Of a stretch of DNA of 64,000 nt, positions 3,828 through 36,863 are shown piece by piece. The stretch spans positions 124,001-188,000 of the forward strand of contig NZ_FPAT01000005.1 in assembly GCF_900116555.1 (NCBI RefSeq), written 5' to 3'. Each line of letters begins with the position of its first letter. The stretch's first letter is position 1. The translations under genes and the position numbers were made by a program. The stretch comes from Actinopolyspora lacussalsi subsp. righensis. GTDB lineage: Bacteria; Actinomycetota; Actinomycetes; Mycobacteriales; Pseudonocardiaceae. Below the pieces are notes generated by a model. The model made no database searches and had not been told where the DNA came from. It saw only the letters and a program-made list of their open reading frames with translations.

Positions 3828-4949
3828 ATGACGCGACGTTCTTTCCCGCCCTACCGGGCCGACCACGTGGGCAGCCTGCTGCGCCCCTCGTACCTGCACT
3901 CGGCACGCGAGAAGTTCGCGGCGGGCGAGCTGTCCGCCGAGGCGCTGCGCGAAACCGAGGATCGCGCGGTGCGCGAGGTGGTGGCCATGCAGGAGGACAT
4001 CGGGCTTTCCACCGCGACCGACGGTGAGTTCCGCCGCTCCACGTGGCACATGGACTTCATCTACAAGTTGGACGGCATCAACGCCAGCGACTCCACGATG
4101 TCCGTGCGGTTCCACAACGAAGCGGGCGACATCGAGTTCGCTCCCTCCGCCACCCGGATCGACGGGAGGATCCGGCTCGGGGAACCGATCTTCGGCGAGG
4201 ACTTCGCATACCTGGCCAGTCAGGTCAGCACCGCCACCCCCAAGCTGACGATGCCCTCGCCGAGCATGGTCCACTACCGGGGCGGCCCCGCGGCGATCAG
4301 TCCGGAGGTGTACCCGGACATCGAGCGGTTCTGGGACGATCTCTCGGCCGCCTACGCCGACCAGATCCGGGCCATGGGCGCCAGGGGCTGCAAGTACCTC
4401 CAGCTCGACGACACCAGTCTGGCCTACCTCAACGATCCGGCCCAACGCGCCCAGCTGGCCGAGCGCGGCGACGACGCCGAACACCAGCACCTGCGCAACA
4501 TCAAGCAGATGAACGCGGCTCTCGCGGCGCGTCCGTCCGACATGGCGGTGACCACGCACATGTGCCGGGGCAACTTCCGTTCCTCGTGGGTGGCCGAGGG
4601 CGGCTACGAGTTCGTCGCCGAGGCGGTGTTCAACGAGCTCGACGTGGACGGTTTCTTCCTGGAGTTCGACGACGAACGTTCGGGAGGCTTCGCCCCACTT
4701 CGCTTCGTCCCCGACGACAAGGTGGTCGTACTCGGACTGGTCACCACCAAACGCGGCGAGTTGGAGTCCAAGGACGCGCTGAAGCGGCGGATCGAGGAGG
4801 CCACTCGCTACATCGACATCGACCAGCTCTGCCTCTCGCCGCAGTGCGGATTCGCCTCGACCGAGGAGGGCAACGCGCTGGACATCGAACAGCAGGCGGC
4901 GAAGCTGCGGCTGATCGTCGAAACCGCCCGTGAGGTGTGGGGCGACTGA
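3828..4949 (+). CDS. Stand-alone MetE C-domain-like methyltransferase
   Basis: 373-residue protein of the cobalamin-independent methionine synthase II family (YxjG/YxjH-like), holding only the catalytic (beta/alpha)8 barrel that in full-length MetE is the C-terminal half. Zinc-site residues are visible: H and C in TTHMCRGN (about residue 245), the acidic FFLEFDDER strand, and the late cysteine in LCLSPQCGFAS. Such short proteins transfer a methyl group to homocysteine or a related thiol, or cleave methylthio compounds; the methyl donor is not established. No Shine-Dalgarno sequence is seen; TACTGT ends eight bases before the ATG, so translation may be leaderless. Divergent from an IclR regulator. 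It could supply methionine from methyl groups released by the C1 island 5 kb downstream, which is inference. Confidence 0.85.
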   Translation: MTRRSFPPYRADHVGSLLRPSYLHSAREKFAAGELSAEALRETEDRAVREVVAMQEDIGLSTATDGEFRRSTWHMDFIYKLDGINASDSTMSVRFHNEAGDIEFAPSATRIDGRIRLGEPIFGEDFAYLASQVSTATPKLTMPSPSMVHYRGGPAAISPEVYPDIERFWDDLSAAYADQIRAMGARGCKYLQLDDTSLAYLNDPAQRAQLAERGDDAEHQHLRNIKQMNAALAARPSDMAVTTHMCRGNFRSSWVAEGGYEFVAEAVFNELDVDGFFLEFDDERSGGFAPLRFVPDDKVVVLGLVTTKRGELESKDALKRRIEEATRYIDIDQLCLSPQCGFASTEEGNALDIEQQAAKLRLIVETAREVWGD

Positions 4950-7491: not shown

Positions 7492-7609
7492 TCCCCGGGC
7501 GCGGCACCGACCGCACCACAACGACCCCGGGGGAAGCGCGGGTCCCGAGGGAAGCGCGGGGCGCCGAACGTGGTCGCCACACGGATCGAGTCGGCCCGGT
7601 GCGGAGTGA

Positions 7610-8401
7610 TCAGGTTTCGAGATACCCGAGCTGGGCCGAGAGCTCCTTGGAAGCCACCGTCATCGCGTCGACGAGCTCACGCATCCTTCTGCGGGAGAAT
7701 CGGTAGGACGGCCCGGAAGCACTCAGCGCGGCGATGACACCGCCGTTGTGGTTGTAAACGGCGACCGCCGCCGCGTTCAGCCCCAGTTCGAGTTCCTCGT
7801 AGCTTGTCGCGTAACCATCGCGTTCGATGGCCTGGAACTCCTTGCGGAGCTCCTCGGAATCGGTGATGGTTCGCGCCGTGTAGCGCTGCAGTTCCTCACC
7901 GAGCAGATCCTCCCGGTCCTCGTTCGGGGCGTGCGCGAACAGCACCTTGCCGCTCGAAGTGGCATGCAGCGGTGTCCGCTGCCCCACCCAGTTGTGCGCG
8001 GTGACGGAGGCCGTGCCGCGCGCCTGGCTGATGTTGATCGCCACGTCGTGATCCCGGATGGCGATGTTGACGGTCTCGCCCAGCTCGGCGGCGAGCGAGT
8101 CACAGTACGGTGCGCCGAGGCGTGGCAGGTCCATCCGCTCGGTGGCGGCTCCGGCGAGCCGGACCACTCCGAAGCCGATGACGTACTTTCCCCTGTCCTT
8201 GAGCTGTTCCACCAGGCCGCGTGTTTCCAACACACTGACCAGCCTCGACGCGGTGGACTTGTGCACGCCCAGTTCCCCGGCGATCTCGGTTATGCCAACC
8301 TCGCCGTTGCGTGCCACGAGCTCCAGGATCGTCACGGCACGGTCCACCGACTGGACCAACGCCCCCGATCCCCTGCCTCGTGTGTCCGCTGATTCACTCA
8401 C
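7610..8401 (-). CDS. IclR-family regulator next to the sarcosine oxidase operon
   Basis: 263-residue IclR regulator: N-terminal winged helix (VGITEIAGELGVHKSTASRLVSVL, about residues 35-58) and C-terminal ligand-binding domain containing VNIAIRDHDVAINISQARG and TPLHATSSGKVLFAH. It lies downstream of soxBDAG on the same strand, separated by 336 bp that hold its own promoter. An imperfect palindrome in that promoter (8500-8516) resembles sites in front of the flavoprotein gene at 14957, so it is the best candidate for the shared regulator of the C1 island. Activator or repressor role and ligand (dimethylglycine, sarcosine or betaine would be logical) are inference. Confidence 0.9.
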   Translation of the reverse strand: MSESADTRGRGSGALVQSVDRAVTILELVARNGEVGITEIAGELGVHKSTASRLVSVLETRGLVEQLKDRGKYVIGFGVVRLAGAATERMDLPRLGAPYCDSLAAELGETVNIAIRDHDVAINISQARGTASVTAHNWVGQRTPLHATSSGKVLFAHAPNEDREDLLGEELQRYTARTITDSEELRKEFQAIERDGYATSYEELELGLNAAAVAVYNHNGGVIAALSASGPSYRFSRRRMRELVDAMTVASKELSAQLGYLET

Positions 8402-8499
8402 GACTCAACCGTATCCGTCCGGGGACAATTGCCGGAACCAACCGTCCTCGTCGGTCCACCGCCCGACTTTCCCGGCAGTCGCCCGACAAACCGCGCGCG

Positions 8500-8516
8500 G
8501 TTCCGTTATACGCAAC
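8500..8516. promoter_or_regulatory. Candidate IclR operator in its own promoter
   Basis: GTTCCGT-TAT-ACGCAAC, a 17-bp inverted repeat with six of seven arm positions matching, lies about 100 bp upstream of the IclR start at 8401, in the 336-bp space (8402-8737) between iclR and soxG. Twelve of its 17 positions are identical to a 17-mer at 14909-14925. Apart from this and a locally AT-richer stretch around it, nothing else is seen in the gap. Confidence 0.5.
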
Positions 8517-8737
8517 ATAGCGCTCGCCCTGTGGCGAACCCGGCGGCACCGGCGAGTTCACCGGCTGCGACACCACCATGCGGCCGGGCCCGCTTCCACC
8601 TCGGAATCGGCCCTACCTCGTGTTTACAGTATCGCAGACCGTAACAGCCCGGGAAGCCCGCGAATCGCCCGGACGACTACCGAGAGCTATCGGACTCGGC
8701 GAAATCGGCGGGAAGCGAACACTCCGGGTCACTGCCG

Positions 8738-9373
8738 TCAACCGTCGAGGAACTCGGCCATGGCGTCCAACAGCAGGTCCGCGAGGTACTCGGCGAAGGA
8801 ACAGCGCACCATGACGCGGTAGCCGGGTTCGTGGTCCAGCTGCCACAGCACCACGACGACCCGTCCCAGCAGGGTCTGTGCGCAGTCACCGGGCCCGAAC
8901 GCACGTGGGTGCAGATCGACCGAGCACAACTTCTCCAGCACCTCACGGGCCATCGGCCCGGAAAGACGCAGTGTGGTGCGATTGGCCGAGACGTCCACCA
9001 CGGAGCCGGAACCACCCCGCTGTGCGTCCCGGACGGTACGCAGCAGACTTTCGGCACGCCCGTCCGGTGCCACGATCAACGACTCGTCGGGGCCCAACCA
9101 CAGCACCGCGTCGTGCTCGTCACCGGTGACCCTGTTGGCCGCGGGCAGCGGGAGCCCCAATGTCTCGGCCACCGAGGCGGCGGAGGAACCGCCCGGCGGG
9201 GTCCGGAGGTCGAGCTGCGTGAGGAACGGTTCCTCGCGCAACCGAACTCCGCGAGCACCGGACGCGCTGCGACGTTCGAACTCGGCGGCACGGTGTTCCA
9301 GCGGACTGTGCCGCGGCGCCGTGCCGACATCGGTCGCGGCGGTTTCGGATTCAACCTTGTGCGGGACCGTCAC
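8738..9373 (-). CDS. soxG: Sarcosine oxidase gamma subunit
   Basis: 211-residue gamma subunit of heterotetrameric sarcosine oxidase, last gene of soxBDAG. It is a GcvT-like small subunit that packs against SoxA/SoxB; family blocks include TQLDLRTPPG, DEHDAVLWLGPDESLIVAP, SVVDVSANRTTLRLSGPMAREVLEKLCSVDLHP and the cysteine- and tyrosine-containing C-terminal strands. The start is placed at GTG 9373, preceded by GGAAGGAG at the right distance, so it overlaps the end of soxA by 23 bp; this implies translational coupling. The frame extends further upstream to 9430 inside soxA but without similarity. Confidence 0.88.
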   Translation of the reverse strand: MTVPHKVESETAATDVGTAPRHSPLEHRAAEFERRSASGARGVRLREEPFLTQLDLRTPPGGSSAASVAETLGLPLPAANRVTGDEHDAVLWLGPDESLIVAPDGRAESLLRTVRDAQRGGSGSVVDVSANRTTLRLSGPMAREVLEKLCSVDLHPRAFGPGDCAQTLLGRVVVVLWQLDHEPGYRVMVRCSFAEYLADLLLDAMAEFLDG

Positions 9374-12257
9374 GTCGGACTCCTTCCGGGTCGTAGAACA
9401 CGGGGCTGGTGATCTCCACCTCGACGTCACGACCGTCGAGCGGAACGCACACCACGTCTCCGAGGCGTTGCTGTCCCCGGCTGATCAGACCGAGCGCGAA
9501 GGTTCGTTCCAGAGCGGCACTGTGGTAACTCGAGGTGACGTGTCCCAGCATCGGCACGGGAGGTTGCCTCGACACGTCGGGCTCGACCAGGTGGGACCCC
9601 TCCGGCAGCAGTGTCGTGGTGTCGGTGGGCAACAGCCCGACCAGCTGTTTGCGGTCCTCGCGCACCAGGTCGGGACGGCTCAGCGAACGCTTGCCGATGA
9701 AGTCCTTCTGCTTGGAGACGGCCCAGTCCATTCCCAGGTCCACCGGAGTGACCGTTCCGTCGGTGTCCTGCCCGACGATCACGAATCCCTTCTCGGCGCG
9801 CAGCACGTGCATCGTCTCGGTTCCGTAAGGGGTGATGCCCAGATCGGATCCGGCCGTCATGGTGGCTTCCCACAGCGCCTGTCCGTACCAGCGGGGGACG
9901 TTGACCTCGAAGGCGAGCTCCCCCGAGAACGAGACCCGGGAGATCCTGGCGGGAACCCCACCGGTGAGTACCGTCTCGTGGAACCGCATGAACCCGAAGG
10001 AATCGGCCGACACGTCGAGGTCCGGGGCGAGTCGTCCCACCACCGTGCGGGAGTCCGGGCCGACCACCGCGACGGCCGCCCACTGCTCGGTGACCGAGGT
10101 GCAGTAGACGTCCAGTTCGGGCCACTCGGTCTGCAACCACTCCTCGAGCCAGTCCAGCACCTTCGCCGCACCACCGGTGGTGGTGCTCATCAGGTAGCGG
10201 TCCTCGGCCAACCGCATCGAGACGCCGTCGTCGAGCACCATCCCGTCCGCACCGCACATCATCCCGTACCGGGCCTTGCCGACCGCCAGCTTCGCGAACC
10301 CGTTGGTGTAGATCCGGTCGAGGAACACCGGCGCGTCCGGCCCCACGATCTCGATGCGCCCGAGCGTGCTGACGTCCTGGACAGCCACTCCGGTCCGCGC
10401 GGCGGCGCATTCGCGCAGCACGGCCGCGTGCATGTCCTCGTCACCGCGCGGGTAGTAACGGGCACGTTTCCACTGGCCCACGTCCTCGAAGACCGCGCCC
10501 GCCTCGACGTGCTGGCGGTGCATCGGTGTGGTGCGCACCGGATCGTAGAGTTCCCCCCGGGTGCGTCCGGCGAACAGCGCGAGCGGCACCGGCGTGTAGG
10601 GCGGGCGGAAGGTGGTGGTTCCCACCTCACCGGGGGAGTTCGCCGAGAGAATCTCCGCCAGGACCCCGACCGCGTTGACACCGGAGCCCTTCCCCTGGTC
10701 CAACCCGGTCGAGATGGTGGTGTAGCGCTTGACGTGCTGCACCGAACGCATCCCGCTCTCGGTGGCGCGGTACATGTCGGCCACCGTGGCGTCGCGTTGC
10801 AGGTCCACGAAGTGCTCGGTGCAACGCTCTGGAGGGCGCGATTCGTCGGGAACCAGCCATACCGGCCGGGGCCTGCTGCCCTGGCGGTCACCGTCGACCT
10901 GCGGCACAGGAGGCGGGGCGGTGCGGAACCCGCTGAGCGTGGCGGCTTCCGCCCCGGCCGCGAATCCCTGCGCGAGACATCCAGCGAGATCGTAGGTCCC
11001 TCGTGCCGAGCCCACCACTTTCGCGGAACGCCCACCGGCCTGCCGCGGCACGAAGCCGGCCACCACGGGGTCCCAACGCACCGCTCCCCCGCTCTGGGCG
11101 AACAGCTGAACCGCCGGATTCCAGCCACCGCTGACCGCCAACAGGTCACAGGAGAACTCGCTGCTCCAGCCCGTGAGCGAACCGTCGGCATCGAGCCCAC
11201 GCACCCGCACACCGGATATCCGGTGCTGCCCGGTGGTGGCTACCACCGCCGCCGAGGTCACCACGTGGGCACCGGCGGCACGGACCTGTTCGACCAGCCG
11301 CGCGGACGGCTCGGGCCGGGTGTCCACGATGGCCGGAACACGGGCTCCCGCACCGAGCAGGTCGAGCGCGGTGCTGTACGCGCTGTCCGAAGTGGTGAAG
11401 ACGACGGCCTCACGGCCGGGCAGCACGGCGTAACGGTTGAGATAGGACCGGACCGCCGAGGCCAGCATCACGCCGGGGCGGTCGTTGTCGGCGAACACCA
11501 CGGGACGTTCGTGCGCTCCGGTGGCGAGCACCACCTGCTTCGCCCTGACGTGCCAGAGTCGCTGCCGACTCATCGAGGGGGGCGGGGCGGCCATGTGGTC
11601 CGTACGACTCTCGGCCACGAGTAGGTAGTTGTGGTCGTAGCACCCGAGTGCCGAGGAGCGGGTCAGCACCCGGACCTGTTCGTTCTCCGCGAGTTCGCGC
11701 GCGGCACGCCCGATCCACTCGGTCGCCGGATGTCCGGCGATGTCGGCCTGTCCGTCCAGCAGCATGCCGCCGAGCTCGCGGTGCTGGTCGACGAGGATCA
11801 CCCGAGCGCCACCCCGCGCGGCCGTCAGGCTCGCCGCTATCCCGGAGGGACCGGCTCCCACCACGACGACGTCGGTGTGCACGAACTTCTTGTCGTAACC
11901 GGCGGTGTCGCGCTGTTGGCTCAACCATCCGACACCGGACAGTGTCTCGGCACGCAGCCCTTCCCGGAGTTCGATCTCGGTGGCGGGCAGCATGGGTTCC
12001 GGACAGTCGCCGTCGAGCAGCTGCACCAGCGCGTTGGGTTCGGTGCAGTCGGCACTGAACACACCCCTCGGACGTCCCCGCTGGATCGAGGGGGCCACCT
12101 CGATGTCGCCGTGGGCCAGCATGGCCGAGGCCAACGTGTCGCCGGGCCTGCCGCGGATCTCACGTCCGTCCACGGTGGCGTTCAACGTGCGGGTGCGGTC
12201 GATACGCCCCGCGCGGACCGATGCGTTCACACGGTTGGGGTTCGACGAACTCGTCAT
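9351..12257 (-). CDS. soxA: Sarcosine oxidase alpha subunit
   Basis: 968-residue alpha subunit of heterotetrameric sarcosine oxidase, which oxidises sarcosine to glycine and H2O2 and passes the methyl carbon to tetrahydrofolate as 5,10-methylene-THF. Domains in order: N-terminal ferredoxin-fold-like segment (about 25-110, RTRTLNATVDGREIRGRPGDTLASAM), nucleotide-binding Rossmann modules beginning with VVVVGAGPSGIAAS (about 128-142, NAD site), and a C-terminal GcvT-like folate-binding module (from about 600, including SGELAFEVNVP and LGMDWAVSKQKDFIGKRSL). Full length for the family. Its ATG is five bases after the soxD stop. Confidence 0.95.
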   Translation of the reverse strand: MTSSSNPNRVNASVRAGRIDRTRTLNATVDGREIRGRPGDTLASAMLAHGDIEVAPSIQRGRPRGVFSADCTEPNALVQLLDGDCPEPMLPATEIELREGLRAETLSGVGWLSQQRDTAGYDKKFVHTDVVVVGAGPSGIAASLTAARGGARVILVDQHRELGGMLLDGQADIAGHPATEWIGRAARELAENEQVRVLTRSSALGCYDHNYLLVAESRTDHMAAPPPSMSRQRLWHVRAKQVVLATGAHERPVVFADNDRPGVMLASAVRSYLNRYAVLPGREAVVFTTSDSAYSTALDLLGAGARVPAIVDTRPEPSARLVEQVRAAGAHVVTSAAVVATTGQHRISGVRVRGLDADGSLTGWSSEFSCDLLAVSGGWNPAVQLFAQSGGAVRWDPVVAGFVPRQAGGRSAKVVGSARGTYDLAGCLAQGFAAGAEAATLSGFRTAPPPVPQVDGDRQGSRPRPVWLVPDESRPPERCTEHFVDLQRDATVADMYRATESGMRSVQHVKRYTTISTGLDQGKGSGVNAVGVLAEILSANSPGEVGTTTFRPPYTPVPLALFAGRTRGELYDPVRTTPMHRQHVEAGAVFEDVGQWKRARYYPRGDEDMHAAVLRECAAARTGVAVQDVSTLGRIEIVGPDAPVFLDRIYTNGFAKLAVGKARYGMMCGADGMVLDDGVSMRLAEDRYLMSTTTGGAAKVLDWLEEWLQTEWPELDVYCTSVTEQWAAVAVVGPDSRTVVGRLAPDLDVSADSFGFMRFHETVLTGGVPARISRVSFSGELAFEVNVPRWYGQALWEATMTAGSDLGITPYGTETMHVLRAEKGFVIVGQDTDGTVTPVDLGMDWAVSKQKDFIGKRSLSRPDLVREDRKQLVGLLPTDTTTLLPEGSHLVEPDVSRQPPVPMLGHVTSSYHSAALERTFALGLISRGQQRLGDVVCVPLDGRDVEVEITSPVFYDPEGVRRDGPAQG

Positions 12258-12261: not shown

Positions 12262-12531
12262 TTACCGACTTTCGCGACGTCGTGGAATGTCCGGCCTCAT
12301 CTCGTTGGTCGCGGTGTCGCGAACGACCGAGAACCAGCGGCGACAACCCGCCGTGTGCACCCAGCGCTCGTCGAACGAGCCCGATGGGTTCGCGCGAACG
12401 AACAGGTACTCGCCCCAAGTGGCGTCGTCGAGCTGGTGGGGATCGGCCGGGTAGTCGACATCGGCCTGTCCGCCGTAGCGGAACTCGGCCTCGTCGCGGT
12501 CACCACACCACGGGCATCGGACGAGGAGCAT
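12262..12531 (-). CDS. soxD: Sarcosine oxidase delta subunit
   Basis: 89-residue delta subunit with the zinc-binding signature CPWCGDRDEAEF at residues 6-17 and the distal HTAGCRRWF pair, which together supply three Cys and one His. Family blocks GEYLFVRANPSG and RWVHTAGCRRWF are intact. It lies 142 bp after soxB and just before soxA in the order B-D-A-G known from Corynebacterium and Pseudomonas. Confidence 0.94.
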   Translation of the reverse strand: MLLVRCPWCGDRDEAEFRYGGQADVDYPADPHQLDDATWGEYLFVRANPSGSFDERWVHTAGCRRWFSVVRDTATNEMRPDIPRRRESR

Positions 12532-12673: not shown

Positions 12674-13894
12674 TCAGTGGGCGACGGCGGCCGCGCCGTG
12701 TTCGTCTATGAGGGCTCCGCTGGTGAACCGCTCCATGCCGTAGGGCTCGTTGAGCGGATGGGGCTCCCCGGTGGCGATGGTGTGGGCGAACACCCAGCCC
12801 GCTCCCGGAGTCGCCTTGAAGCCGCCCGTCCCCCAGCCGCAGTTGACGAAGAGGTTCTCGTAGGGCGTGGGGCCGATGATCGGCGAGGCGTCCGGGGTCA
12901 CATCCACGGTGCCGGCCCAGGTACGCAGCAGATGCGCCCTGGCGAACACGGGGAACAGCTCCACTGCCGCCGCCAGCTGGTTCTCGATCACGTGCACCGA
13001 GCCTCGCTGCGCGTACCCGTTGTGGGTGTCTATGCCGGCGCCGAGCACGAGCTCGCCCTTGTGGGCCTGGCTGGTGTAGACGTGCACGTGGTTGGACATG
13101 ACCACGCAGGGATGCACGGGTTCGAGGATCTCGGTGGCCATGGCCTGCAGCGGGTGGCTCTGCAACGGAAGCCGGAGACCGAGGGTGTCGGTGAGCAGCG
13201 TCGTCCTTCCCGCCGCTGCCAGTCCCACCCGACCGGCTCCGATGTCACCGTTGTCGGTTCGTACCCCGATCACCCGGTCCCCGTCGGTGACGAAGCCGGT
13301 GACCTCGCGGTTCTGGATGAAGTCCACTCCCATCTCGTCACACTTCCGTGCCAGCCCCCACGCGACGAGGTCGTGCTTGGCTATTCCCGCTCTGCGCTGG
13401 TACGTGGCGCCGAGCACCGGATAGCGCAGATTCGACGTGTTGAGGATGGGGCAGATCTCGGAGATCTCGTCGGGGGTGAGCCACTCGGCGTCCACCCCGT
13501 TGAGCTCGTTGGCGAACGCTCTCCTGCGCGCGTCCCGGACCTCCTGCTCGGTGTGGGCGAGATTGAGCACGCCGCGCTGGCTGAAGTGGAACTCGTAGTC
13601 GAGTTCCTCGTGGAGTTCCTCCCAGAGCCGCAACGCGTGGTCGTAGAGCGCTGCGCTGGCGTCGAGCAGGTAGTTCGAACGGATGATCGTGGTGTTTCGG
13701 GCCATGTTGCCGCCCGCGAGCCACCCGCGCTCGACAACGGCGATGTCGGTGATGCCGTGGTTGCGCGCCAGGTAGTAAGCGGTGGCCAGTCCGTGCCCGC
13801 CGGCCCCGACGATCACCACGTCGTAGTTGCGTTTCGGCTCCGGGTTGCGCCACAGCCGCTCCGGGGGAGCTGGGGTGTTGCCGTCAGCGACCAA
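12674..13894 (-). CDS. soxB: Sarcosine oxidase beta subunit
   Basis: 406-residue FAD/FMN beta subunit, the catalytic flavoprotein of heterotetrameric sarcosine oxidase. The dinucleotide motif [18 protein letters not shown] starts near residue 26. His174 in [14 protein letters not shown] matches the histidine that carries covalent FMN in corynebacterial SoxB. The C-terminal block [29 protein letters not shown] is typical. The start is a TTG with AAGGAG seven bases upstream. First gene of the sox operon and divergent from a GntR gene; the 185-bp gap holds a palindrome. Confidence 0.95.
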
Positions 13895-14079: not shown

Positions 14080-14763
14080 GTGTCGGAAGCGGTCAATTCC
14101 CCATCGGGTGACAGTTCGCCGCAGCGGTTCCCCCAGGAGCGCCCCTCACAGGCCGAGCGCGCCTACCTGACCCTGCGGGAGGAGATCCTGTCGCTGCGGC
14201 TGGCCCCCGGGTCCCCCGTGCGGGAAGAAGCACTGACCAGCGAACTGGGCCTCGGACGCACCCCCTTCCGGGAGGCCGTGAAACGCCTCGCCGCCGAGTC
14301 CCTGGTGGCGATCTACCCCCGCAGGGGCACCTTCGTCACCGAGGTCAACATCACCGATCACGCCCTGATCGCCGACGTGCGGCGGAGACTGGAGGGGCAC
14401 GCGGCCAGGAGGGCGGCCGAACGGTCCACCGAGGCGGAGCGGGGCGAGCTCGCGGAACTGGTGGAACTGGTGGAGCGCGTCCCCGAAGAGCCGGAGTCGG
14501 TCATGGGCGTGGACGCCCGGGTGCACCGCACGCTGTACCGCTGCACCCACAACGGCTACCTGGAAAGCACTCTTGGGCAGTACTACAACCTCGCACTGCG
14601 CATCTGGGGACTTTTCTTCGATCGATTGAGTGACGTCACGAGCCATGTCACCGAACACACCGAGTTACTGAAAGCCGTCATCGACGCCGATGCGGACCGG
14701 GCCGACCGCGTCGCGGTCGACCACGTCGATCACTTCGAGAACTCGATTCGCCAAGTGCTGTAA
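14080..14763 (+). CDS. GntR/FCD-family regulator between sox operon and C1 genes
   Basis: 227-residue GntR regulator of the FadR/VanR type. The winged helix covers about residues 25-90 (ALTSELGLGRTPFREAVKRLAAESLV), followed by an all-helical FCD effector domain. In that domain D-x3-H in VDARVHRTLYR and the later ITEHTELLKAVID-like segment (TEHTELLKAVIDAD) suggest a metal-dependent carboxylate site. It starts with GTG eight bases after TAGGCT, with no ribosome site, so it is probably leaderless. Divergent from soxB and 193 bp upstream of the flavoprotein gene. A role in sensing an amino acid such as glycine or sarcosine is inference. Confidence 0.9.
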   Translation: MSEAVNSPSGDSSPQRFPQERPSQAERAYLTLREEILSLRLAPGSPVREEALTSELGLGRTPFREAVKRLAAESLVAIYPRRGTFVTEVNITDHALIADVRRRLEGHAARRAAERSTEAERGELAELVELVERVPEEPESVMGVDARVHRTLYRCTHNGYLESTLGQYYNLALRIWGLFFDRLSDVTSHVTEHTELLKAVIDADADRADRVAVDHVDHFENSIRQVL

Positions 14764-17548: not shown

Positions 17549-18760
17549 ATGAGCATCAACCCGACCCCCGCGATCCTGCAGTACCCCCGTCTCCGCAAGT
17601 CCCCCTTCTTCTACGCTTCGCGCAGGCACGGGGTGGGGATGTACAGCGTGTACAACCACACCTATCACGCCAGGCACTACGGTGACCCGGTAGCCGAGTA
17701 CTGGCACCTGCTCAACGGTGTGACGCTGTGGGACGTCGGTGTCGAGCGTCAGGTGGAGATCACCGGCCCGGACGCCTTCGAGTTCACCAACATGCTGGTC
17801 CCCCGTGATCTGAACAAGTGCCGGGTCGGGCAGTGCAAGTACGTGTTCATCACCGCGGAGGACGGCGGCATCATCAACGATCCCGTGCTGCTGCGCCTCG
17901 GGGAGAACCACTTCTGGCTGTCGCTGGCCGACAGCGACGTGCTGCTGTGGGCCAAGGGGCTCGCCTACAGCCTGGGGATGAACGTCCAGATCCGTGAACC
18001 CGACGTGGGTCCGGTCCAGGTACAGGGGCCGAAGTCCCGTGACGTCATGGTGGACCTGTTCGGGGAGTCCATCCAGGAGATTCCGTACTACTACGCCGTT
18101 GACCGGCAGCTGGACGGTATGGACGTGATCGTCTCACGTACCGGCTACACCGCCGAGCTCGGCTACGAGATCTACCTGCACAACGCCAGCCAGGACGGTG
18201 TGCGGCTCTGGGAGAAGATCTGGGAGGCCGGTCGGCCCTACGACATGCGGGTGATCGGTCCCTGCCACATCCGGCGGATCGAGGCGGGCATCCTGTCCTG
18301 GGGCTGCGACATCACCTACGACACGAATCCGTTCGAGGTCGGTTACGGGTTCGAGGCGACCTGGATGGTCGATCTCAACCAGGAGGCGGACTTCATCGGG
18401 AAATCCGCGCTGACCCGGATCTACGACGAGGGGATCACCCGCAAGCTGGTGGGTGTGGCCATGGGCGGCCCCGAAGTGGGCAGCTTCAACGACGGCTCGA
18501 TGATCGACACCTTCCCGGTTCGGGATCCCAACGGACTGCGTATCGGAGACGTCACCTCCGCCTGCCACTCGCCGAGGCTGGACCGCAACATCGGTTACGC
18601 GATGGTGCCGATCAGCTACCACGAGGTGGGGACACCACTCGTGGTGGAGACCCAGCACGGCCCGCAGGAGGCCGAGGTGGTGGAAAAGCCGTTCCTCGAC
18701 CCGAAGAAGCAGATCCCCAAGCAGTTCGAACGGCAGGAAGAAGCGGCGGTGTCGAAATGA
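17549..18760 (+). CDS. DmdA-like / GcvT-family folate-dependent demethylase
   Basis: 403-residue single-module aminomethyltransferase-fold protein. Its central sequence (GVGMYSVYNHTY, YWHLLNGVTLWDVGVERQVEITGPDA, PRDLNKCRVGQCKY, GGIINDPVLLRL, FWLSLADSDVLLWAKGLAY, EPDVGPVQVQGPKS) follows the dimethylsulfoniopropionate demethylase (DmdA) branch rather than glycine-cleavage GcvT. DmdA moves a methyl group to tetrahydrofolate, giving 5-methyl-THF. The protein is a little longer than classical DmdA (about 370) at both ends. GAGGAG precedes the ATG at 17549, and the last codons overlap the MetF-like gene by 4 bp. The true methyl donor (DMSP, betaine, another onium or an O-methyl compound) cannot be told from sequence. 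Confidence 0.78.
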   Translation: MSINPTPAILQYPRLRKSPFFYASRRHGVGMYSVYNHTYHARHYGDPVAEYWHLLNGVTLWDVGVERQVEITGPDAFEFTNMLVPRDLNKCRVGQCKYVFITAEDGGIINDPVLLRLGENHFWLSLADSDVLLWAKGLAYSLGMNVQIREPDVGPVQVQGPKSRDVMVDLFGESIQEIPYYYAVDRQLDGMDVIVSRTGYTAELGYEIYLHNASQDGVRLWEKIWEAGRPYDMRVIGPCHIRRIEAGILSWGCDITYDTNPFEVGYGFEATWMVDLNQEADFIGKSALTRIYDEGITRKLVGVAMGGPEVGSFNDGSMIDTFPVRDPNGLRIGDVTSACHSPRLDRNIGYAMVPISYHEVGTPLVVETQHGPQEAEVVEKPFLDPKKQIPKQFERQEEAAVSK

Positions 18761-19602
18761 CCACGAACGCGCAACAACAGCTACAGCGTTACCTCCGCAA
18801 CGCCCGTTACGAGGTTCTGCCGCTGCGGGGGGTCGTCGAGCAGGTGCGGGAACTGCCCGCCGGGACGACGGTGACCGTGACGTCCTCGCCCGCCAAGGGG
18901 ACCGAAGCCACTCTGGACACCGCGGCACGGCTGCGTGACGAGGGCATGCACGTGGTCCCCCATCTGGCGGCACGACTGGTCCGGGACTCGGCTCATCTGA
19001 GCGATCTGCTCGCTCGGGTGAGCGACCTCGGTCTCACGGAGGTGTTCGTGATCGCCGGGGACGCCGAACGTCCGGCGGGCAGGTTCACCGACGCCCTCTC
19101 GTTACTGCGGGGCATGGAGGAGATCGGGACCAGGCCGTACCGACTCGGGATCACCGGGTATCCGGAGCAGCACGCCTTCATCCCGGATCGCATGACCATC
19201 CAGGCCACCGACGAGAAGGCACGTTACGCCGACTACATCGTCTCGCAGATCTGCTACGACCCGAACACGATCGCCTCGTGGGTCAAGAGCATGCGAGCCA
19301 GGGGCGTCGAACTGCCGGTCTACATCGGTGCGCCGGGATCGATCGACCCGAGCAAGCTGCTGCGGATCTCGATGAAGATCGGGCTGGGCCAGTCCATGCG
19401 TTTCCTGCGGAAACAGCACGGCGTGGTGACCAAGCTGTTGACCCGCTACACCCCGGAGAACGTGTTCGACGAGTTGTCGCCCTGTCTCGTGGATCCGGAC
19501 TACAACATCGCGGGTTGGCACCTGTTCACCTTCAACGAGATCAGCAAGACCCGGCAATGGGCCATCGAGATGGCCGACCGGCTGCAGGAGGTGCCCGCAT
19601 GA
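18757..19602 (+). CDS. Methylenetetrahydrofolate reductase-family (MetF-like) protein
   Basis: 281-residue FAD/TIM-barrel protein of the MTHFR family, translationally coupled (ATGA) to both neighbours. Recognisable blocks are VFVIAGDAERPAG (the conserved aspartate strand), the YPEQH segment, ARYADYIVSQICYD and LPVYIGAPGSIDPSKLLRISMKIGLG. The N-terminal strand reads TVTVTSSPAKGTEA, where E. coli MetF has FEFFPP with catalytic Glu28, so that glutamate seems to be absent. Beside a DmdA-like enzyme the logical role is oxidation of 5-methyl-THF to 5,10-methylene-THF; direction and cofactor are inference. Confidence 0.78.
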   Translation: MTTNAQQQLQRYLRNARYEVLPLRGVVEQVRELPAGTTVTVTSSPAKGTEATLDTAARLRDEGMHVVPHLAARLVRDSAHLSDLLARVSDLGLTEVFVIAGDAERPAGRFTDALSLLRGMEEIGTRPYRLGITGYPEQHAFIPDRMTIQATDEKARYADYIVSQICYDPNTIASWVKSMRARGVELPVYIGAPGSIDPSKLLRISMKIGLGQSMRFLRKQHGVVTKLLTRYTPENVFDELSPCLVDPDYNIAGWHLFTFNEISKTRQWAIEMADRLQEVPA

Positions 19603-21296
19603 ACATGCCGTCCGATCTGGACATCTCGCGGTCCTCACCACGCAAACCGCTGGAGGAGGTCGCCGCGGATCTTGGGCTGGCTCCCCACCTGCTGGAGCCC
19701 TACGGCAGGGACGTCGCCAAGGTCTCCCTGAGTGCCCTCGACGAGCTCGGTGAGCAGAACCGGGCCAAGTACATCCTGGTCTCGGCCATCACACCGACTC
19801 CGCTCGGCGAGGGTAAAACCACCACCACGGTCGGACTCGGCCAGGCACTGCATCACCTGGGAAAGCGATCGGCGATCGCGATCCGACAGCCGTCCATGGG
19901 TCCGACGTTTGGTATCAAGGGCGGCGCGGCGGGAGGTGGCTACAGCCAGGTGGTGCCCATGGAGGCACTGAACCTGCACCTGACCGGCGATATGCACGCC
20001 GTCACGGCCGCCAACAACATGCTGGCGGCGATGGTGGACAACCACATCCACAAGGGCAACGAACTCGGGCTGGATCCCCACCGGGTGACCTGGCGGCGGG
20101 TGGTCGACATCAACGACCGGGAGTTGCGCAACGTGGTGACCGGCCTGGGCGGCAGTGCCGACGGCACTCCGCACCAGACGGGTTTCGACATCACCGCGGC
20201 CAGCGAGGTGATGGCGGTGCTGGCACTGTCCAACTCGCTGCACGACATGCGTGAACGGCTGGGACGCATCGTCGTGGGCTACACCCACCAGGGGCAGCCG
20301 GTCACGGCGGAGCAGCTGGGTGCCGCCGGTGCGATGACGGTGATCATGCGGGAGGCGATCAAGCCCAACCTGATGCAGACCGTCGAGAACACACCGGTGC
20401 TGGTGCACGCGGGTCCGTTCGGCAACATCGCGCACGGCAACTCCTCCGTCGTGGCCGACCGCATCGCCAGCAGGTGTGCCGACTACGTGGTCACCGAGGC
20501 CGGTTTCGGTGCCGACATGGGGGCCGAACGGTTCTTCAACATCAAGTGCCGGACCTCCGGGTTGCGCCCGGACGCGGCGGTGCTGGTCGCCACCGTTCGG
20601 GCGTTGAAGGCGCACTCCGGGCGATTCCGCGTGGTGGCGGGCAAGGATCTTCCGGCGGAGATGCTCGACGAGAATCCGGAGGACGTGCTCACGGGGGCCG
20701 ACAACCTCCGCAAGCAGATCGAGAACCTGCGCATGCACGGTGTCTCACCCGTGGTGGCGGTGAACGCGTTCCCCACCGACCACCCCAGTGAGCACCAGGC
20801 GATCCGCGAGGTGGCCGAGAACGCGGGTGCCCGCGTGGCCATCAGCACCCATTTCACCGACGGTGGCAAGGGGGCGGTGGAACTGGCCGAAGCGGTCAGC
20901 GAGGCCGCCGAGGAACCCAGTCGATTCGAACTGCTCTACCCCGACTCCGCGGATCTGCGCACCAAGATCGAGACGGTCGCCACCAGGGTCTACGGCGCCG
21001 ACGGAGTTTCGTACACCCCCGCGGCGGAACGCGCGTTGCGCAGTTACACGGCCAACGGGTTCGATTCGCTGCCGGTGTGCATCGCCAAGACGCACCTGTC
21101 GCTGAGTTCCGATCCGAGCCTGTTGGGGGCTCCTACGGGATGGACGCTGCCGGTGCGTGAGATCCGGGCTTCGGTCGGTGCCGGATTCGTCTACCCCATC
21201 TGCGGCGACATGCGCACCATGCCGGGACTGAGTTCCCGGCCCGCCGCGGAGCGGATCGACATCGACGACCGCGGCGAGGTCGTCGGGCTGAGTTGA
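19599..21296 (+). CDS. fhs: Formate-tetrahydrofolate ligase
   Basis: 565-residue 10-formyl-THF synthetase, which interconverts formate + ATP + THF and 10-formyl-THF. Signatures: P-loop TPTPLGEGKTTTTVGLGQAL (about residues 65-84), PSMGPTFGIKGGAAGGGYSQVVPMEALNLHLTGD, FNIKCRTSGLRPDAAVLVATVRALK, and the C-terminal GFVYPICGDMRTMPGL. Full length for the family. It starts four bases before the end of the MetF-like gene. As last gene of the operon it could run in reverse, releasing formate and making ATP from methyl groups captured upstream. The FolD step that should link it to methylene-THF is not in this window. Confidence 0.95.
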   Translation: MNMPSDLDISRSSPRKPLEEVAADLGLAPHLLEPYGRDVAKVSLSALDELGEQNRAKYILVSAITPTPLGEGKTTTTVGLGQALHHLGKRSAIAIRQPSMGPTFGIKGGAAGGGYSQVVPMEALNLHLTGDMHAVTAANNMLAAMVDNHIHKGNELGLDPHRVTWRRVVDINDRELRNVVTGLGGSADGTPHQTGFDITAASEVMAVLALSNSLHDMRERLGRIVVGYTHQGQPVTAEQLGAAGAMTVIMREAIKPNLMQTVENTPVLVHAGPFGNIAHGNSSVVADRIASRCADYVVTEAGFGADMGAERFFNIKCRTSGLRPDAAVLVATVRALKAHSGRFRVVAGKDLPAEMLDENPEDVLTGADNLRKQIENLRMHGVSPVVAVNAFPTDHPSEHQAIREVAENAGARVAISTHFTDGGKGAVELAEAVSEAAEEPSRFELLYPDSADLRTKIETVATRVYGADGVSYTPAAERALRSYTANGFDSLPVCIAKTHLSLSSDPSLLGAPTGWTLPVREIRASVGAGFVYPICGDMRTMPGLSSRPAAERIDIDDRGEVVGLS

Positions 21297-21942: not shown

Positions 21943-22362
21943 TCACTCGACCGCGAGCTCGATGTCGACGTTGCCGCGCACCGCGTTGGAGTAGGGGCAG
22001 ACCCCGTCGGCCGCTTCGGCGAGTTCGAGTGCCCGCTGCCGGTCGAGACCGGGAAGCCCGACACGCAGCGAGAGGCTCAGCCCGTATCCACCGTTGCCGT
22101 TCGGTCCCATCCCGACTCGCGCGGTGACGGTGGAGTCGTCCACACTCACCCCGGCACGGCGGGCGACCACCCGCAGCGCACTGTGGAAGCAAGCCGCGTA
22201 TCCGGCAGCGAAGAGCTGCTCCGGATTGGTCGCCTCTCCTCCCGGACCACCGAGTTCCTTAGGCACGGACAACCCGAGGTCGAGCACACCGTCCGAGGAA
22301 CGGGTACGACCGTCCCGTCCTTCGCCGCTGGCGGTGGCCTCTGCCGTGTACAACGCTGTCAT
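21943..22362 (-). CDS. ohr: Organic hydroperoxide reductase Ohr
   Basis: 139-residue OsmC/Ohr-family thiol peroxidase that reduces organic hydroperoxides with lipoamide-type thiols. The two catalytic cysteines are visible in YAACFHSALR and DGVCPYSNAVRGN, and the Ohr signature NPEQLFAAGYAACF is intact. The start is at ATG 22362 after GGGAGAG; the longer frame to 22488 is a leader of mixed composition. No OhrR gene is adjacent, so regulation is unclear; the upstream 170 bp include an AT-rich stretch (AAATTGCGCACAACCTAATT). Confidence 0.93.
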   Translation of the reverse strand: MTALYTAEATASGEGRDGRTRSSDGVLDLGLSVPKELGGPGGEATNPEQLFAAGYAACFHSALRVVARRAGVSVDDSTVTARVGMGPNGNGGYGLSLSLRVGLPGLDRQRALELAEAADGVCPYSNAVRGNVDIELAVE

Positions 22363-22532
22363 CGTCACTCTCCCAGTCACCGATCGATTGGCGCGGGCAA
22401 GGCCGCGTGCCGCGACCACCCACCAAAAAGATAGCGGAAAACTAAATTGCGCACAACCTAATTGGGTGAAATACCCGTACCGCACCACGATGCGGAAGAG
22501 ATGAACCGGGGCACACTCACCCCGGAACTCGA

Positions 22533-25726: not shown

Positions 25727-26488
25727 ATGTACGGGGCGGAGCGTCGGCAGGTGCTGGTGCAGCGGGCACGCCGCGACGGTCGTATCGACGTCGCGGAGGC
25801 GTCCACGGAGCTCGAGGTAGCGCCGGAGACCATTCGACGCGACCTCGGCACGTTGGAACGCCAAGGGCTACTGCGCCGCGTATACGGCGGGGCCATCCCG
25901 CAGGAACGGCTCGACTTCGAACCGGGTGTCTCACAGCGGGACCAGACAGCCGCGGCGGAAAAGGACCGAGTGGCACGTGCCGCGCTGGACCTGGTACCCG
26001 AAAGGGGGACGCTGCTGTTGGACGCGGGAACCACCACGAGCCGGGTGGCGGGCCTGCTGCCCACCGACCGCGAGCTGACAGTGGTCACCAACTCGCTTCC
26101 GGTGGCCAACCAGTTGGCCAACCGTGGCAACCTCGACCTGCATCTGCTCGGCGGTCGGGTGCGAGGCACCACGCTGGCGGCTGTCGAGTCCTGGGCACTG
26201 AGCGTGCTGGACGGTCTGACCGTCGACGTCGGTCTGCTCGGCACGAACGGTTTCTCCGCCGAGCGGGGCTGCACCACCCCGGACAGCGCGGAAAGCGCGG
26301 TGAAATCGGCGATGGTGCGGTCCTGCCGCGAACGAGTCCTGCTGGCCGACAACACCAAGCACGGACGCGACCACTTCAGCCGTTTCGCCGAGATATCCGA
26401 TCTCGATGTGCTTATCACCAACAGTGGTTTGCACGAGACGGCGGTGTCCGAGCTGCGCGAGTGCGGAACGGACGTGGTACTGACATGA
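25727..26488 (+). CDS. fruR: DeoR-family regulator of the fructose operon
   Basis: 253-residue DeoR/GlpR-type repressor: N-terminal winged helix (DVAEASTELEVAPETIRRDLGTLERQGLLRRVYGGA, about residues 20-55) and a C-terminal sugar-phosphate sensor domain with the family motif DAGTTTSRVAGLL. It is the first gene of the operon and overlaps fruK by 4 bp (ATGA). By position the likely inducer is fructose 1-phosphate or fructose 1,6-bisphosphate. GGAGG precedes the ATG. Confidence 0.9.
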   Translation: MYGAERRQVLVQRARRDGRIDVAEASTELEVAPETIRRDLGTLERQGLLRRVYGGAIPQERLDFEPGVSQRDQTAAAEKDRVARAALDLVPERGTLLLDAGTTTSRVAGLLPTDRELTVVTNSLPVANQLANRGNLDLHLLGGRVRGTTLAAVESWALSVLDGLTVDVGLLGTNGFSAERGCTTPDSAESAVKSAMVRSCRERVLLADNTKHGRDHFSRFAEISDLDVLITNSGLHETAVSELRECGTDVVLT

Positions 26489-27429
26489 TCGTCACCGTCA
26501 CCCCCAACCCCAGTCTGGATCGCAGCGTACTGCTCGATCGTCTCGATCGGGGGGAGGTTCACCGCGCCGGTGGAGTACACGTGGACCCCGGCGGCAAAGG
26601 GGTCAACGTCGCCCGCGTGTTGACCGCGGCCGATCACAGCGCCGTGGCGGTACTACCGACCGGAGGGGTCGAGGGCAACAGCCTCGCCGAGCTGCTCGCG
26701 CCGGAGGCCGTCTCCGTCGTCGAGGTGCCCGTGGAGGCCGCCACCCGCAGCAACCTCACCCTGGTCGAGGCCGACGGGACCACCACCAAGATCAACGAGC
26801 CCGGGAACGCGTTGACCACCGGCGAGCTGGAAGCGTTGCGCACCCGGTTGGGTGAGGTGGCCACGCGAGCGCGATGGGTGGTGGCGAGTGGGAGCCTGCC
26901 GCACGGTTGCCCCGACGACTACTACGCCGGTCTGGTGCGAACCGCTCGCGGGGCCGGCGCGAAGGTCGCGGTGGACTCCTCGGGGGCCGCGTTGGCCGAG
27001 GCGTGCGCGGCGGGGCCCGACCTGCTCGCCCCCAACCTGGCGGAACTGACCGAACTCGCGGGACACCGGCCCGCTGACCTCGCAGAAGTGGCCGCCACCG
27101 CACGAGCGGTTCGCTCCGAGGGCACCGGTTCCGTGCTGGTCACCCTCGGCGAGCACGGCGCACTGCTCGTCGGGGACGAGTCTGCCTGGTTCGGCACGAG
27201 CAACGCTCGAAGGGTGCGCAGCACGGTCGGTGCGGGCGATGCCGCGCTGGCCGGGTACCTGCTCGCGGGCGGAGACGGACCGGAAGCCTTGCGCTCCGCC
27301 GTGGCCTACGGCTCGGCAGCCGTGGAACTGCCGGGCAGCCGGATGCCCACCCCGAAAGAGCTGCGGATCGAACAGGTGCGGATCACCGAAGTCGACGAAT
27401 CAGGTCGGCTCTACCCCATGTCGCCGTAA
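26485..27429 (+). CDS. fruK: 1-Phosphofructokinase
   Basis: 314-residue PfkB-family kinase that turns fructose 1-phosphate (the PTS product) into fructose 1,6-bisphosphate. It begins MIVTVTPNPSLDR as in FruK. It carries the glycine-rich HVDPGGKGVNVARVL motif and the C-terminal catalytic signature STVGAGDAALAGYL with the base Asp. The ATG at 26485 overlaps the fruR stop; the extra eight residues of the longer frame belong to fruR. Confidence 0.93.
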   Translation: MIVTVTPNPSLDRSVLLDRLDRGEVHRAGGVHVDPGGKGVNVARVLTAADHSAVAVLPTGGVEGNSLAELLAPEAVSVVEVPVEAATRSNLTLVEADGTTTKINEPGNALTTGELEALRTRLGEVATRARWVVASGSLPHGCPDDYYAGLVRTARGAGAKVAVDSSGAALAEACAAGPDLLAPNLAELTELAGHRPADLAEVAATARAVRSEGTGSVLVTLGEHGALLVGDESAWFGTSNARRVRSTVGAGDAALAGYLLAGGDGPEALRSAVAYGSAAVELPGSRMPTPKELRIEQVRITEVDESGRLYPMSP

Positions 27430-27441
27430 CGGAGTCGAAGA

Positions 27442-27894
27442 ATGAGCAGTGAACTGATCACCACCGAACTGGTCGATTTGGACCTGCCGGACACGGATCG
27501 CCGTGCCGCGATCCGCTCATTGGCCGATCGACTGGTCAACGCCGAGCGCGTCACCGACATCGAACGTTTCCTCGACGATGTCGAGACCCGCGAACAACAG
27601 ATGGCCACCGGCATGCGGGGTGGTATCGGCATCCCGCACTGCCGCTCGGCTGCCGTGACCGCTCCGAGCCTGGCGTTCGGGCGCAGCTCCACGGGGATCG
27701 ACTTCGGCGCCGAGGACGGTCCGGCGAATCTGATCTTTCTGATAGCCGCCCCGGAAGGCGGGGATTCGGACCACATGGCGGTGCTGGCCTCGCTGGCACG
27801 TCGACTGATGCGGGGAGAGTTCAAACGAACCCTGCTCGACGCGGACGACCCGACCGTGGTCGCTTCCTACGTGCGTGAGGAGGTAAAACCTTGA
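27442..27894 (+). CDS. Fructose PTS enzyme IIA
   Basis: 150-residue PTS EIIA of the fructose/mannitol class. The phosphoryl-accepting histidine lies in GIGIPHCRSAAV (about residue 66). It takes phosphate from HPr and passes it to the IIB domain encoded by the next gene, whose TTG start overlaps this stop by 4 bp. In many actinobacteria IIA is fused to IIBC; here it is separate. Confidence 0.92.
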   Translation: MSSELITTELVDLDLPDTDRRAAIRSLADRLVNAERVTDIERFLDDVETREQQMATGMRGGIGIPHCRSAAVTAPSLAFGRSSTGIDFGAEDGPANLIFLIAAPEGGDSDHMAVLASLARRLMRGEFKRTLLDADDPTVVASYVREEVKP

Positions 27895-29354
27895 AGTTCG
27901 TTGCCGTGACCGCGTGTCCCACCGGAATAGCGCACACCTACATGGCTGCCGAGGCGCTGGAACAGGCCGCTCGTGACCGGGGTGACGAGCTCAGCGTCGA
28001 GACGCAGGGGGCGGCCGGTTCCGATCCGTTGTCCGAACAGGACATAGCTGCCGCCGACGCCGTGATTCTGGCCGCCGACGTCGGGGTCGGCGAACGCGAC
28101 AGGTTCGCCGGCAAGCCCGTCGTCGAGGCGAGTGTGAAACAGGCAGTCGACAGTGCCGCTTCTCTGCTCGAACGCGCCGCGACGGCCGAGCCGGCCCGCA
28201 CCGGGGCCGACGCGGACCGCTCGAGCCCCGAGCCGGCCACCAAGGTCTCCGCCAACGCCTCGGCGGGCGCGAGGCTGCGGCAGTGGCTGATGACGGGCGT
28301 CAGCTACGTGATCCCGTTCGTCGCGGCCGGTGGGCTGTTGATCGCGCTGAGCTTCGCGTTGGGCGGTTACCAGATCACCGAAGCGCCGGACGTCACCGAA
28401 CGGTTCGATCCGGCGAGTCTGACCAGCTGGGCCGCGCTGGCGAACCAGATCGGCACTGCCGCTTTCGAGTTCCTCGTCCCGGTGCTCGCCGGTTTCATCG
28501 CGTTCGCGATGGCCGAGCGCCCCGCCCTGGTTCCCGGTTTCGTGGGTGGTGCCGCCGCCGTCGCGGTGGGGGCGGGTTTCCTCGGCGGCCTGATCGCGGG
28601 ACTGCTGGCAGGCGGTGTCGTCACCGGTCTGCGCCGGATCAAAGTACCCTCGGCCGTCGCGGGCATCATGCCGGTGGTCGTGATACCCCTGTTCGGCTCG
28701 ATGGTGGTCGGCACCCTGATGTTCGTGGTGCTCGGCAAACCCATCGCCGCCGCGATGACCGCTCTCACGGACTGGCTCAACGGGCTCAGCGGTGCGAACG
28801 CGATGCTGCTGGGCGCGGTGCTCGGTGGAATGATCGCTTTCGACCTCGGCGGTCCCGTCAACAAGGTCGCCTACACCTTCGCGGTCGGCGGGCTGACCAC
28901 CGGTAGCGAGACGGCGTTGGAGATCATGGCCGCCGTGATGGCGGCGGGGATGGTGCCACCGTTGGCTATGGCGCTGGCCGCGACCGTGCGCGCCGGGGCG
29001 TTCTCCGCCGCCGAGCGGGAGAGCTCACGTCCCGCCTGGCTGCTGGGAGTCTCGTTCATCACCGAGGGGGCGATCCCGTTCGCCGCTTCGGACCCCCTGC
29101 GGGTCATCCCCTCCATGATCGCCGGCTCGGCGAGCGCGGGCGCGCTGTCCATGTTCTTCGGCGCGACGCTGCGCGCGCCGCACGGTGGGCTGTTCGTGCT
29201 GCCGCTGGTCGGCGGTCCACTGCTGTACGCGGTGGCGATCGTCGCGGGTGTGCTGGTGGCCGCGGCCGTGGTGATCGCTGCCAAGACGTTCGTGGGACGC
29301 GGGGCGACGTCGAAGGAACGGACCCCGGAGACCGAAGGGGCCGTTGCCGCCTGA
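27891..29354 (+). CDS. fruA: Fructose PTS enzyme IIBC (permease)
   Basis: 487-residue membrane permease. The N-terminal IIB domain (1-100) has the phosphocysteine in TACPTGIAHTYMAAEAL (Cys9), and a ~35-residue linker leads to the IIC domain, with about nine to ten hydrophobic segments from residue 138 to 475 (GVSYVIPFVAAGGLLIALSF onwards). ITEGAIPFAASDP near the C-terminus is the conserved IIC sugar-site loop. The start is TTG with GAGGAGG upstream, coupled to the IIA gene. It imports fructose as fructose 1-phosphate. Confidence 0.92.
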   Translation: MKFVAVTACPTGIAHTYMAAEALEQAARDRGDELSVETQGAAGSDPLSEQDIAAADAVILAADVGVGERDRFAGKPVVEASVKQAVDSAASLLERAATAEPARTGADADRSSPEPATKVSANASAGARLRQWLMTGVSYVIPFVAAGGLLIALSFALGGYQITEAPDVTERFDPASLTSWAALANQIGTAAFEFLVPVLAGFIAFAMAERPALVPGFVGGAAAVAVGAGFLGGLIAGLLAGGVVTGLRRIKVPSAVAGIMPVVVIPLFGSMVVGTLMFVVLGKPIAAAMTALTDWLNGLSGANAMLLGAVLGGMIAFDLGGPVNKVAYTFAVGGLTTGSETALEIMAAVMAAGMVPPLAMALAATVRAGAFSAAERESSRPAWLLGVSFITEGAIPFAASDPLRVIPSMIAGSASAGALSMFFGATLRAPHGGLFVLPLVGGPLLYAVAIVAGVLVAAAVVIAAKTFVGRGATSKERTPETEGAVAA

Positions 29355-29448
29355 AGCCGATAGTGAAACCGATCGAGCGGGAACGTCGGTTCACCCGCTC
29401 GTCAGCGGCGACCGGACGACCGGGCGCCACCGGGAGAGGAGTAACGGA

Positions 29449-29739
29449 ATGCACCAGCGTCGCGTGACGATCGCGTCGAAGGTCGGACTGCACGCCCGCC
29501 CCGCGGGACTGTTGGCGACGAACGCGGCCGCACAACCGCTGCCGGTGACCATCGCCAAGGTCACCGACGGCACGCCGGGCGGATCGGTGGATGCCGCGAG
29601 TGTGCTGGGACTCATGACGCTCGGGGCCGAGCACGGCGACGAGGTCGAACTGGCCGCCGAGGGAGAAGGTGCCGAAGCGGTGCTGGACGAGCTGGTGGAA
29701 CTGCTGGCCCGCGACCTCGACGGGGAGCCCACCTCCTGA
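29449..29739 (+). CDS. ptsH: Phosphocarrier protein HPr
   Basis: 96-residue HPr with the active histidine in SKVGLHARPAG (His16) and the conserved DAASVLGLMTLGA segment, where the serine matches the regulatory serine region. GGAGAGGAG lies upstream of the ATG. It closes the fructose operon 94 bp after the permease. Enzyme I (ptsI), needed to phosphorylate it, is not in the window. Confidence 0.93.
   Translation: MHQRRVTIASKVGLHARPAGLLATNAAAQPLPVTIAKVTDGTPGGSVDAASVLGLMTLGAEHGDEVELAAEGEGAEAVLDELVELLARDLDGEPTS

Positions 29740-34635: not shown

Positions 34636-36863
<2,228 letters not shown>

Follow-up and report, generated by a model that had tools for sequence, protein, structure and literature searches.

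A sister lineage of the DMSP demethylase DmdA in Actinopolyspora, predicted to demethylate glycine betaine with tetrahydrofolate

Background

Three routes are known for the demethylation of glycine betaine (GB). The glycine betaine monooxygenase GbcAB is a Rieske enzyme that uses O2, releases formaldehyde and yields dimethylglycine (DMG), BHMT uses homocysteine, and the MtgB-MtgC-MtgD/A systems use cobalamin and several proteins and end in methyl-tetrahydrofolate (methyl-THF) (PMC12478193). A 2025 study of GB demethylation named GbcAB, BHMT and corrinoid systems and did not mention DmdA (PMC12478193). Arthrobacter sp. Rue61a grows on GB and has a DMG oxidase, and its predicted pathway has been recorded as incomplete (PMC3534580). 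We found no description of a THF-dependent GB demethylase in the literature searched, a search that left out most subscription journals.

Methyl transfer to THF is well described for other substrates. The DMSP demethylase DmdA (Pelagibacter ubique SAR11_0246, PDB 3tfh; R. pomeroyi) forms 5-methyl-THF by redox-neutral methyl transfer (PMC5395565). LigM, the GcvT-fold vanillate O-demethylase of Sphingobium SYK-6, also makes 5-methyl-THF, and its partner S6MTHFR has been shown to oxidise this product, which establishes the pairing of a demethylase with a reverse-running MTHFR (PMC12585457). In SAR11, the DmdA-like SAR11_1265 is a neighbour of metF, and SAR11_1303 of a sarcosine oxidase and of genes for GB transport; both are described as aminomethyltransferases of unknown substrate, the former proposed to act on the second DMSP methyl group and the latter to have an unspecified role in GB metabolism (PMC3160333).

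Here we analysed a DmdA-like protein, DmdL, encoded in a 64,000-nucleotide stretch of DNA (hereafter, the window) of Actinopolyspora lacussalsi subsp. righensis. We consider it likely that DmdL is a THF-dependent GB demethylase whose product, 5-methyl-THF, would then be oxidised by MTHFR. The substrate is inferred from gene partners and from the absence of alternatives, without an assay.

Results and discussion

Family placement of DmdL

The dmdL reading frame is free of stops and its translation contains verbatim all four motif blocks (including SVYNHTY and FWLSLADSD) on which the first-pass annotation had grouped the protein with DMSP demethylase rather than with glycine cleavage. A ribosome-binding-like GAGGAG lies just 5' of the ATG at 17549, where relatives also begin; an alternative GTG start lies upstream at 17501. 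Both GcvT domains were detected by Pfam (GCV_T, 1.4e-43; GCV_T_C, 5.9e-15), the top NCBIfam model was DmdA (PRK12486, 8e-104, 347.5 bits, compared with 178 for GcvT), and the best PDB sequence match was 3tfh (3e-70), with GcvT and LigM far behind. Foldseek likewise ranked 3tfh first for the AlphaFold model (mean pLDDT 88; TM 0.87, E 5e-44), followed by GcvT, DMGDH and LigM, with YgfZ much further away (TM 0.59, E 1e-17). The match to the DmdA family is not due to chance.

DmdL and DmdA are both single-domain proteins of one 100/100 superclade, which a 71-row tree separated from GcvT, DMGDH, SoxA and Tdm domains, the last of these falling on the GcvT side. The two are nevertheless only 34-40% identical, and neither DmdL nor a Halomonas copy (330 bits) reached the PRK12486 equivalog cut-off of 410 bits. 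Six DmdA proteins, among them 3tfh and two proteins from dmd operons, formed their own clade (100/99) without DmdL, and forcing DmdL into this clade was rejected (p-AU 6.8e-27). The clade of the window's DmdL comprises Actinobacteria, Rubrobacter and Halomonas with moderate support (81/94 and 89/80 in two trees), while a third set (roseobacters, SUP05 and SAR11) is sister to DmdA (93/96). DmdL is a lineage sister to DmdA, not a true DmdA.

Membership in other GcvT-fold families failed. DmdL scored 155 bits against the GcvT equivalog cut-off of 235.85 (TIGR00528), no gcvH or gcvP match was found among its annotated neighbours, and a separate GcvT is encoded elsewhere in the genome. YgfZ/Iba57 membership failed on the Foldseek comparison above, the LigM and DesA O-demethylase equivalogs reached 42 of 580 and 54 of 800 bits, and the two-domain TMAO demethylase Tdm reached 220 of 1100 bits, through its C-domain only. 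LigM, to which DmdL may be likened, acts on aryl methyl ethers and differs from it in structure (TM ~0.66) and sequence (20% identity). The first-pass annotation, which tree placement inside GcvT or YgfZ would have refuted, therefore held in setting DmdL on the DmdA side rather than with GcvT, YgfZ or LigM, as judged by tree, HMM and fold; its wording "with DMSP demethylase" held only in part, since DmdL is a sister lineage.

The folate-site residues E207 and Y209 are invariant in the clade and correspond to E204 and Y206 of 3tfh, and the GcvT-type glutamate is retained (E203). The DmdA motif S-G-[WY]-S-K-Q-G-G reads T-G-Y-T-A-E-L-G in DmdL, so that KQGG becomes AELG with E in place of the DmdA-specific Q. 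DmdL also has Y200 where DmdA has a Trp near the folate Glu/Tyr, described as "W171" (PMC7487153). As a marker for DMSP this position was rejected as non-diagnostic, one annotated DmdA (L026) also having Tyr. By fold, folate-site residues and its MTHFR partner, DmdL fits the broad kind of methyl-THF-producing GcvT-fold demethylases, with the 5-methyl-THF product inferred. Methyl transfer dependent on THF is expected of it by analogy with DmdA, and we regard it as a further type among these demethylases, not a DmdA, although its activity is likewise inferred and has not been assayed.

An apparent operon for N-methyl compounds

The dmdL gene lies in an apparent plus-strand operon (GntR regulator, DMGO, DmdL, MTHFR, formate-THF ligase), with soxBDAG and an IclR regulator divergent from it (Table 1). 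The stop of dmdL and the start of the MTHFR gene overlap by ATGA, as do the MTHFR stop and the Fhs start. The best PDB match of this MTHFR is 7xg9, which we take to be S6MTHFR; the genome encodes another MTHFR, a canonical one, away from this locus. The first-pass claim that the partners of DmdL handle N-methyl compounds thus held, with DMG oxidase upstream and soxBDAG divergent. A promoter scan gave no signal above chance.

Table 1. Features of the dmdL locus and of other parts of the window
Feature	Coordinates	Strand	Basis or remark
Core-MetE-like methyltransferase	3828..4949	+	PRK06520
Highly charged protein, 432 aa, hydrophobic N-terminal stretch	5214-6512		No Pfam or NCBIfam match
IclR-family regulator	7610..8401	-	Adjoins same cluster in many relatives
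Sarcosine oxidase gamma subunit SoxG	8738..9430	-	132.8 bits, just under cut-off
Sarcosine oxidase alpha subunit SoxA	9351..12257	-	1199 bits, over cut-off
Small ORF at soxD position	12262..12531	-	Position; kept between soxB and soxA in relatives
Sarcosine oxidase beta subunit SoxB	12674..13894	-	589 bits, over cut-off
GntR/FCD-family regulator	14080..14763	+	Directly upstream of DMGO gene
Dimethylglycine oxidase (DMGO), FAD and GcvT domain, 864 aa	14855..17449	+	Full-length, 892 bits to Arthrobacter globiformis DMGO 1pj5
DmdL, GcvT-fold DmdA-like THF methyltransferase, 403 aa, predicted GB demethylase	17549..18760	+	Pfam, NCBIfam, PDB, tree, fold
Divergent MTHFR, MetF-like, 281 aa	18757..19602	+	PDB match (see text)
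Formate--tetrahydrofolate ligase (Fhs)	19599..21296	+	Family search of neighbours
Sugar PTS operon (DeoR regulator, PfkB kinase, PTS EIIA, EIIB, HPr)	25727-29739
Single-domain LPMO_10 (lytic polysaccharide monooxygenase)	30448-31218
Two-subunit methylmalonyl-CoA mutase and MeaB	32713-37858

The core-MetE-like gene could possibly have a related C1 function; it is missing from the DmdL neighbourhoods of relatives. An OsmC gene (21943-22488), considered because roseobacter relatives carry one, was rejected as a cluster member: its product is a peroxiredoxin of the Ohr type and shares only 23% identity with roseobacter OsmC.

Gene partners of DmdL across genomes

We further compared 58 DmdL loci of the clade (Actinobacteria, Rubrobacter and Halomonas), a sample in which some species are near-duplicates and a few contigs are short. 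MTHFR was present in 50 of the 58 loci, DMGO/DMGDH in 48, either DMGO/DMGDH or a sarcosine oxidase/dehydrogenase in 54, formate-THF ligase in 42 and ETF in 19. The Halomonas islands are compact, consisting of formate-THF ligase, a GbdR-like regulator (434 bits, under the cut-off of 480), DMGDH, DmdL and MTHFR, and a Rubrobacteraceae locus has the order BCCT-DMGO-DmdL-MTHFR-cyclohydrolase-GcvT-like-monomeric sarcosine oxidase type-IclR, its glycine betaine BCCT transporter scoring 622 bits (under the cut-off of 650). Many of the named carriers are, to judge by those names, halophiles or isolates from saline habitats (Halosaccharopolyspora, Halomonas, Allosalinactinospora), and the label "terrestrial-type" given to the host in the first-pass annotation is loose. 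Its suggestion of an N-methyl or other onium donor was strengthened, and the gene partners narrow it to GB, with the activity itself remaining an inference.

An alternative explanation is that DmdL is a divergent DMSP demethylase of the DmdA type and that the adjoining N-methyl genes serve a separate pathway. In its favour, DmdA is the closest characterised relative by sequence and fold, and a full-length DmdC-type acyl-CoA dehydrogenase (37% identical) is encoded elsewhere in the window's genome, which leaves MMPA breakdown possible. DMSP is also among the compounds that BCCT transporters can carry. Against it, DmdA-clade placement was rejected and the DmdA-specific Q is replaced. True DmdA loci carry dmdB/C/D, whereas dmdB was absent from all 58 loci, of which 6 had a DmdC-type acyl-CoA dehydrogenase and 1 had a hydratase, and none of dmdB, dmdC and dmdD was found in the window cluster. 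The partners of DmdL, by contrast, make or use DMG and sarcosine. Moreover, likeness to DmdA does not prove its activity: in a dmdA mutant, MeSH production was not restored by a DmdA-like protein from SAR92 strain H455 (PMC10746254). We consider this explanation unlikely.

Relatives outside the clade have other surroundings. The set sister to DmdA (roseobacters, SUP05, SAR11 and Marinobacterium; L019-L022, L121-L159) recurs with Lrp, OsmC and enoyl-CoA hydratase genes, and an acyl-CoA synthetase in roseobacter-set loci is 49% identical to DmdB, a DMSP-like context; the substrate here might be DMSP or an acyl-chain betaine. Some roseobacter-type copies sit on conjugative plasmids of Phaeobacter. 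Marinobacterium ramblicola (L121) carries two near-identical DmdL-type genes (7404-8552 and 9962-11110 of its own locus) with PurU between them, followed by MTHFR, FolD, Lrp and a betaine-type BCCT transporter. Relatives on haloarchaeal megaplasmids (L025, L027; ~40% identical) adjoin MTHFR, FolD-type genes, a BCCT transporter and DMGO-like oxidases, and may supply the missing betaine step in haloarchaea. A 55-60% identical group from Gemmatimonadota, Chloroflexi and other MAGs (L107, L110, L112-L118) almost entirely lacks nearby MTHFR, DMGO and dmd genes.

DmdL and Rieske oxygenases beside DMGO/DMGDH

In 60 genomes of the window's taxonomic family, we compared the places of DmdL, Rieske alpha subunits and DMGO/DMGDH within 10 kb. 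Among 64 DMGO/DMGDH places, 21 were near DmdL, 29 near a Rieske gene, none near both and 14 near neither (Fisher p 6.5e-8, a test that ignores shared descent), and 21 of the 23 DmdL genes adjoined DMGO/DMGDH. At least two DMGO/DMGDH types accompany DmdL in the family (71-100% and 41-44% identical to that of the window). Since such divergent types stand beside DmdL, the pairing has probably arisen more than once, which argues for recurrent association and against pure shared ancestry.

The best family for these Rieske alpha subunits is the glycine betaine monooxygenase GbcA. They score 226 bits against the GbcA cut-off of 670, so that their own substrate is an inference too. The Rieske oxygenases (L166-L195) are ~70% identical to one another, form an uncharacterised GbcA-like actinobacterial group and adjoin a second DMGO type. 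Two unrelated enzymes thus occupy one place beside DMGO/DMGDH, and the simple reading, again inferred, is that both supply DMG from GB, GbcAB and DmdL being predicted to share this step. Only at the level of single loci do the two exclude each other. A genome-level exclusion was rejected, with Rieske genes in 13 of 23 DmdL-bearing and 17 of 37 other genomes, and all DmdL-bearing Halomonas tested also hold a bona fide GbcA.

This co-occurrence weighs against the GB reading, as it demands either parallel routes or differing substrates. DmdL might instead act on a different quaternary betaine (e.g., proline betaine, carnitine, beta-alanine betaine or an aromatic N-methyl betaine) or be promiscuous, with DMGO/SOX-type enzymes continuing on the demethylated product. 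The presence of GbcA and DmdL in one genome is easier to explain with differing substrates, and the DMGO/DMGDH types beside DmdL vary among lineages (41-100% identity). However, the DMGO match in the window is strong and SoxA and SoxB score over their cut-offs, both enzymes having N-methylglycines as substrates; the loci of the clade show no recurrent ring-opening, CoA-ligase or carnitine genes; and the regulator and transporter matches are of betaine/choline types. On balance we find another betaine improbable as the main substrate, while noting that the GbdR and BCCT matches fall somewhat under their curated cut-offs.

Absence of known routes and the proposed pathway

In the window's genome we found no Rieske alpha subunit and thus no GbcAB, no MTTB/MtgB, and PF02574 (BHMT type) only inside MetH, without a stand-alone BHMT. 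With these known routes absent, DmdL is the remaining candidate if the genome catabolises GB. A whole-genome search with DmdL returned only four GCV_T-type proteins (DmdL, GcvT, DMGO and SoxA), and the genome encodes four full BCCT transporters, nearest the betaine type.

Under the GB reading, DmdL would convert GB and THF to DMG and 5-methyl-THF by direct, redox-neutral methyl transfer to N5. The neighbouring MTHFR, which would have a role only with 5-methyl-THF as the product, is inferred to run in the oxidising direction, yielding 5,10-methylene-THF. From their families, DMGO would convert DMG to sarcosine and the heterotetrameric sarcosine oxidase sarcosine to glycine, each methyl group leaving as methylene-THF, and Fhs, in an inferred reverse direction, would release formate from 10-formyl-THF with recovery of ATP. 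A quaternary ammonium gives up a methyl group less readily than a sulfonium does, a general chemical point that counts against this reaction.

A further alternative is that DmdL is an aminomethyltransferase or a formaldehyde-THF condensing enzyme that aids DMGO/SOX, with 5,10-methylene-THF as product. The GcvT fold, the retained E203 and the release of formaldehyde equivalents by DMGO and SoxA are in line with this. Yet DMGO and SoxA have GcvT domains of their own, methylene-THF as product would leave a dedicated MTHFR without purpose, a separate GcvT is encoded in the genome, and the tree splits DmdL from GcvT. This alternative seems to us very unlikely, and a THF-dependent GB demethylase remains the preferred reading.

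Implications

A bolder reading, for which we see as much reason to doubt as to believe, is that DmdL represents a fourth, so far undescribed class of enzymes that begin GB degradation and that DMSP demethylase is a specialised offshoot of an older family of onium demethylases. The enzyme in that equally balanced proposal would be a single GcvT-fold protein, free of cobalamin, oxygen and homocysteine, in Actinobacteria, Rubrobacter and Halomonas. If true, the one-enzyme route, independent of O2, B12 and homocysteine, would stand as a fourth beside GbcAB, BHMT and corrinoid MtgBCD. Such a DmdA-type route would hold the methyl group on folate, with no formaldehyde set free, and would be a caution that counts of "dmdA" or "gcvT" in metagenomes lump different substrates together. 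It would also close pathway gaps where a genome has none of the three known routes.
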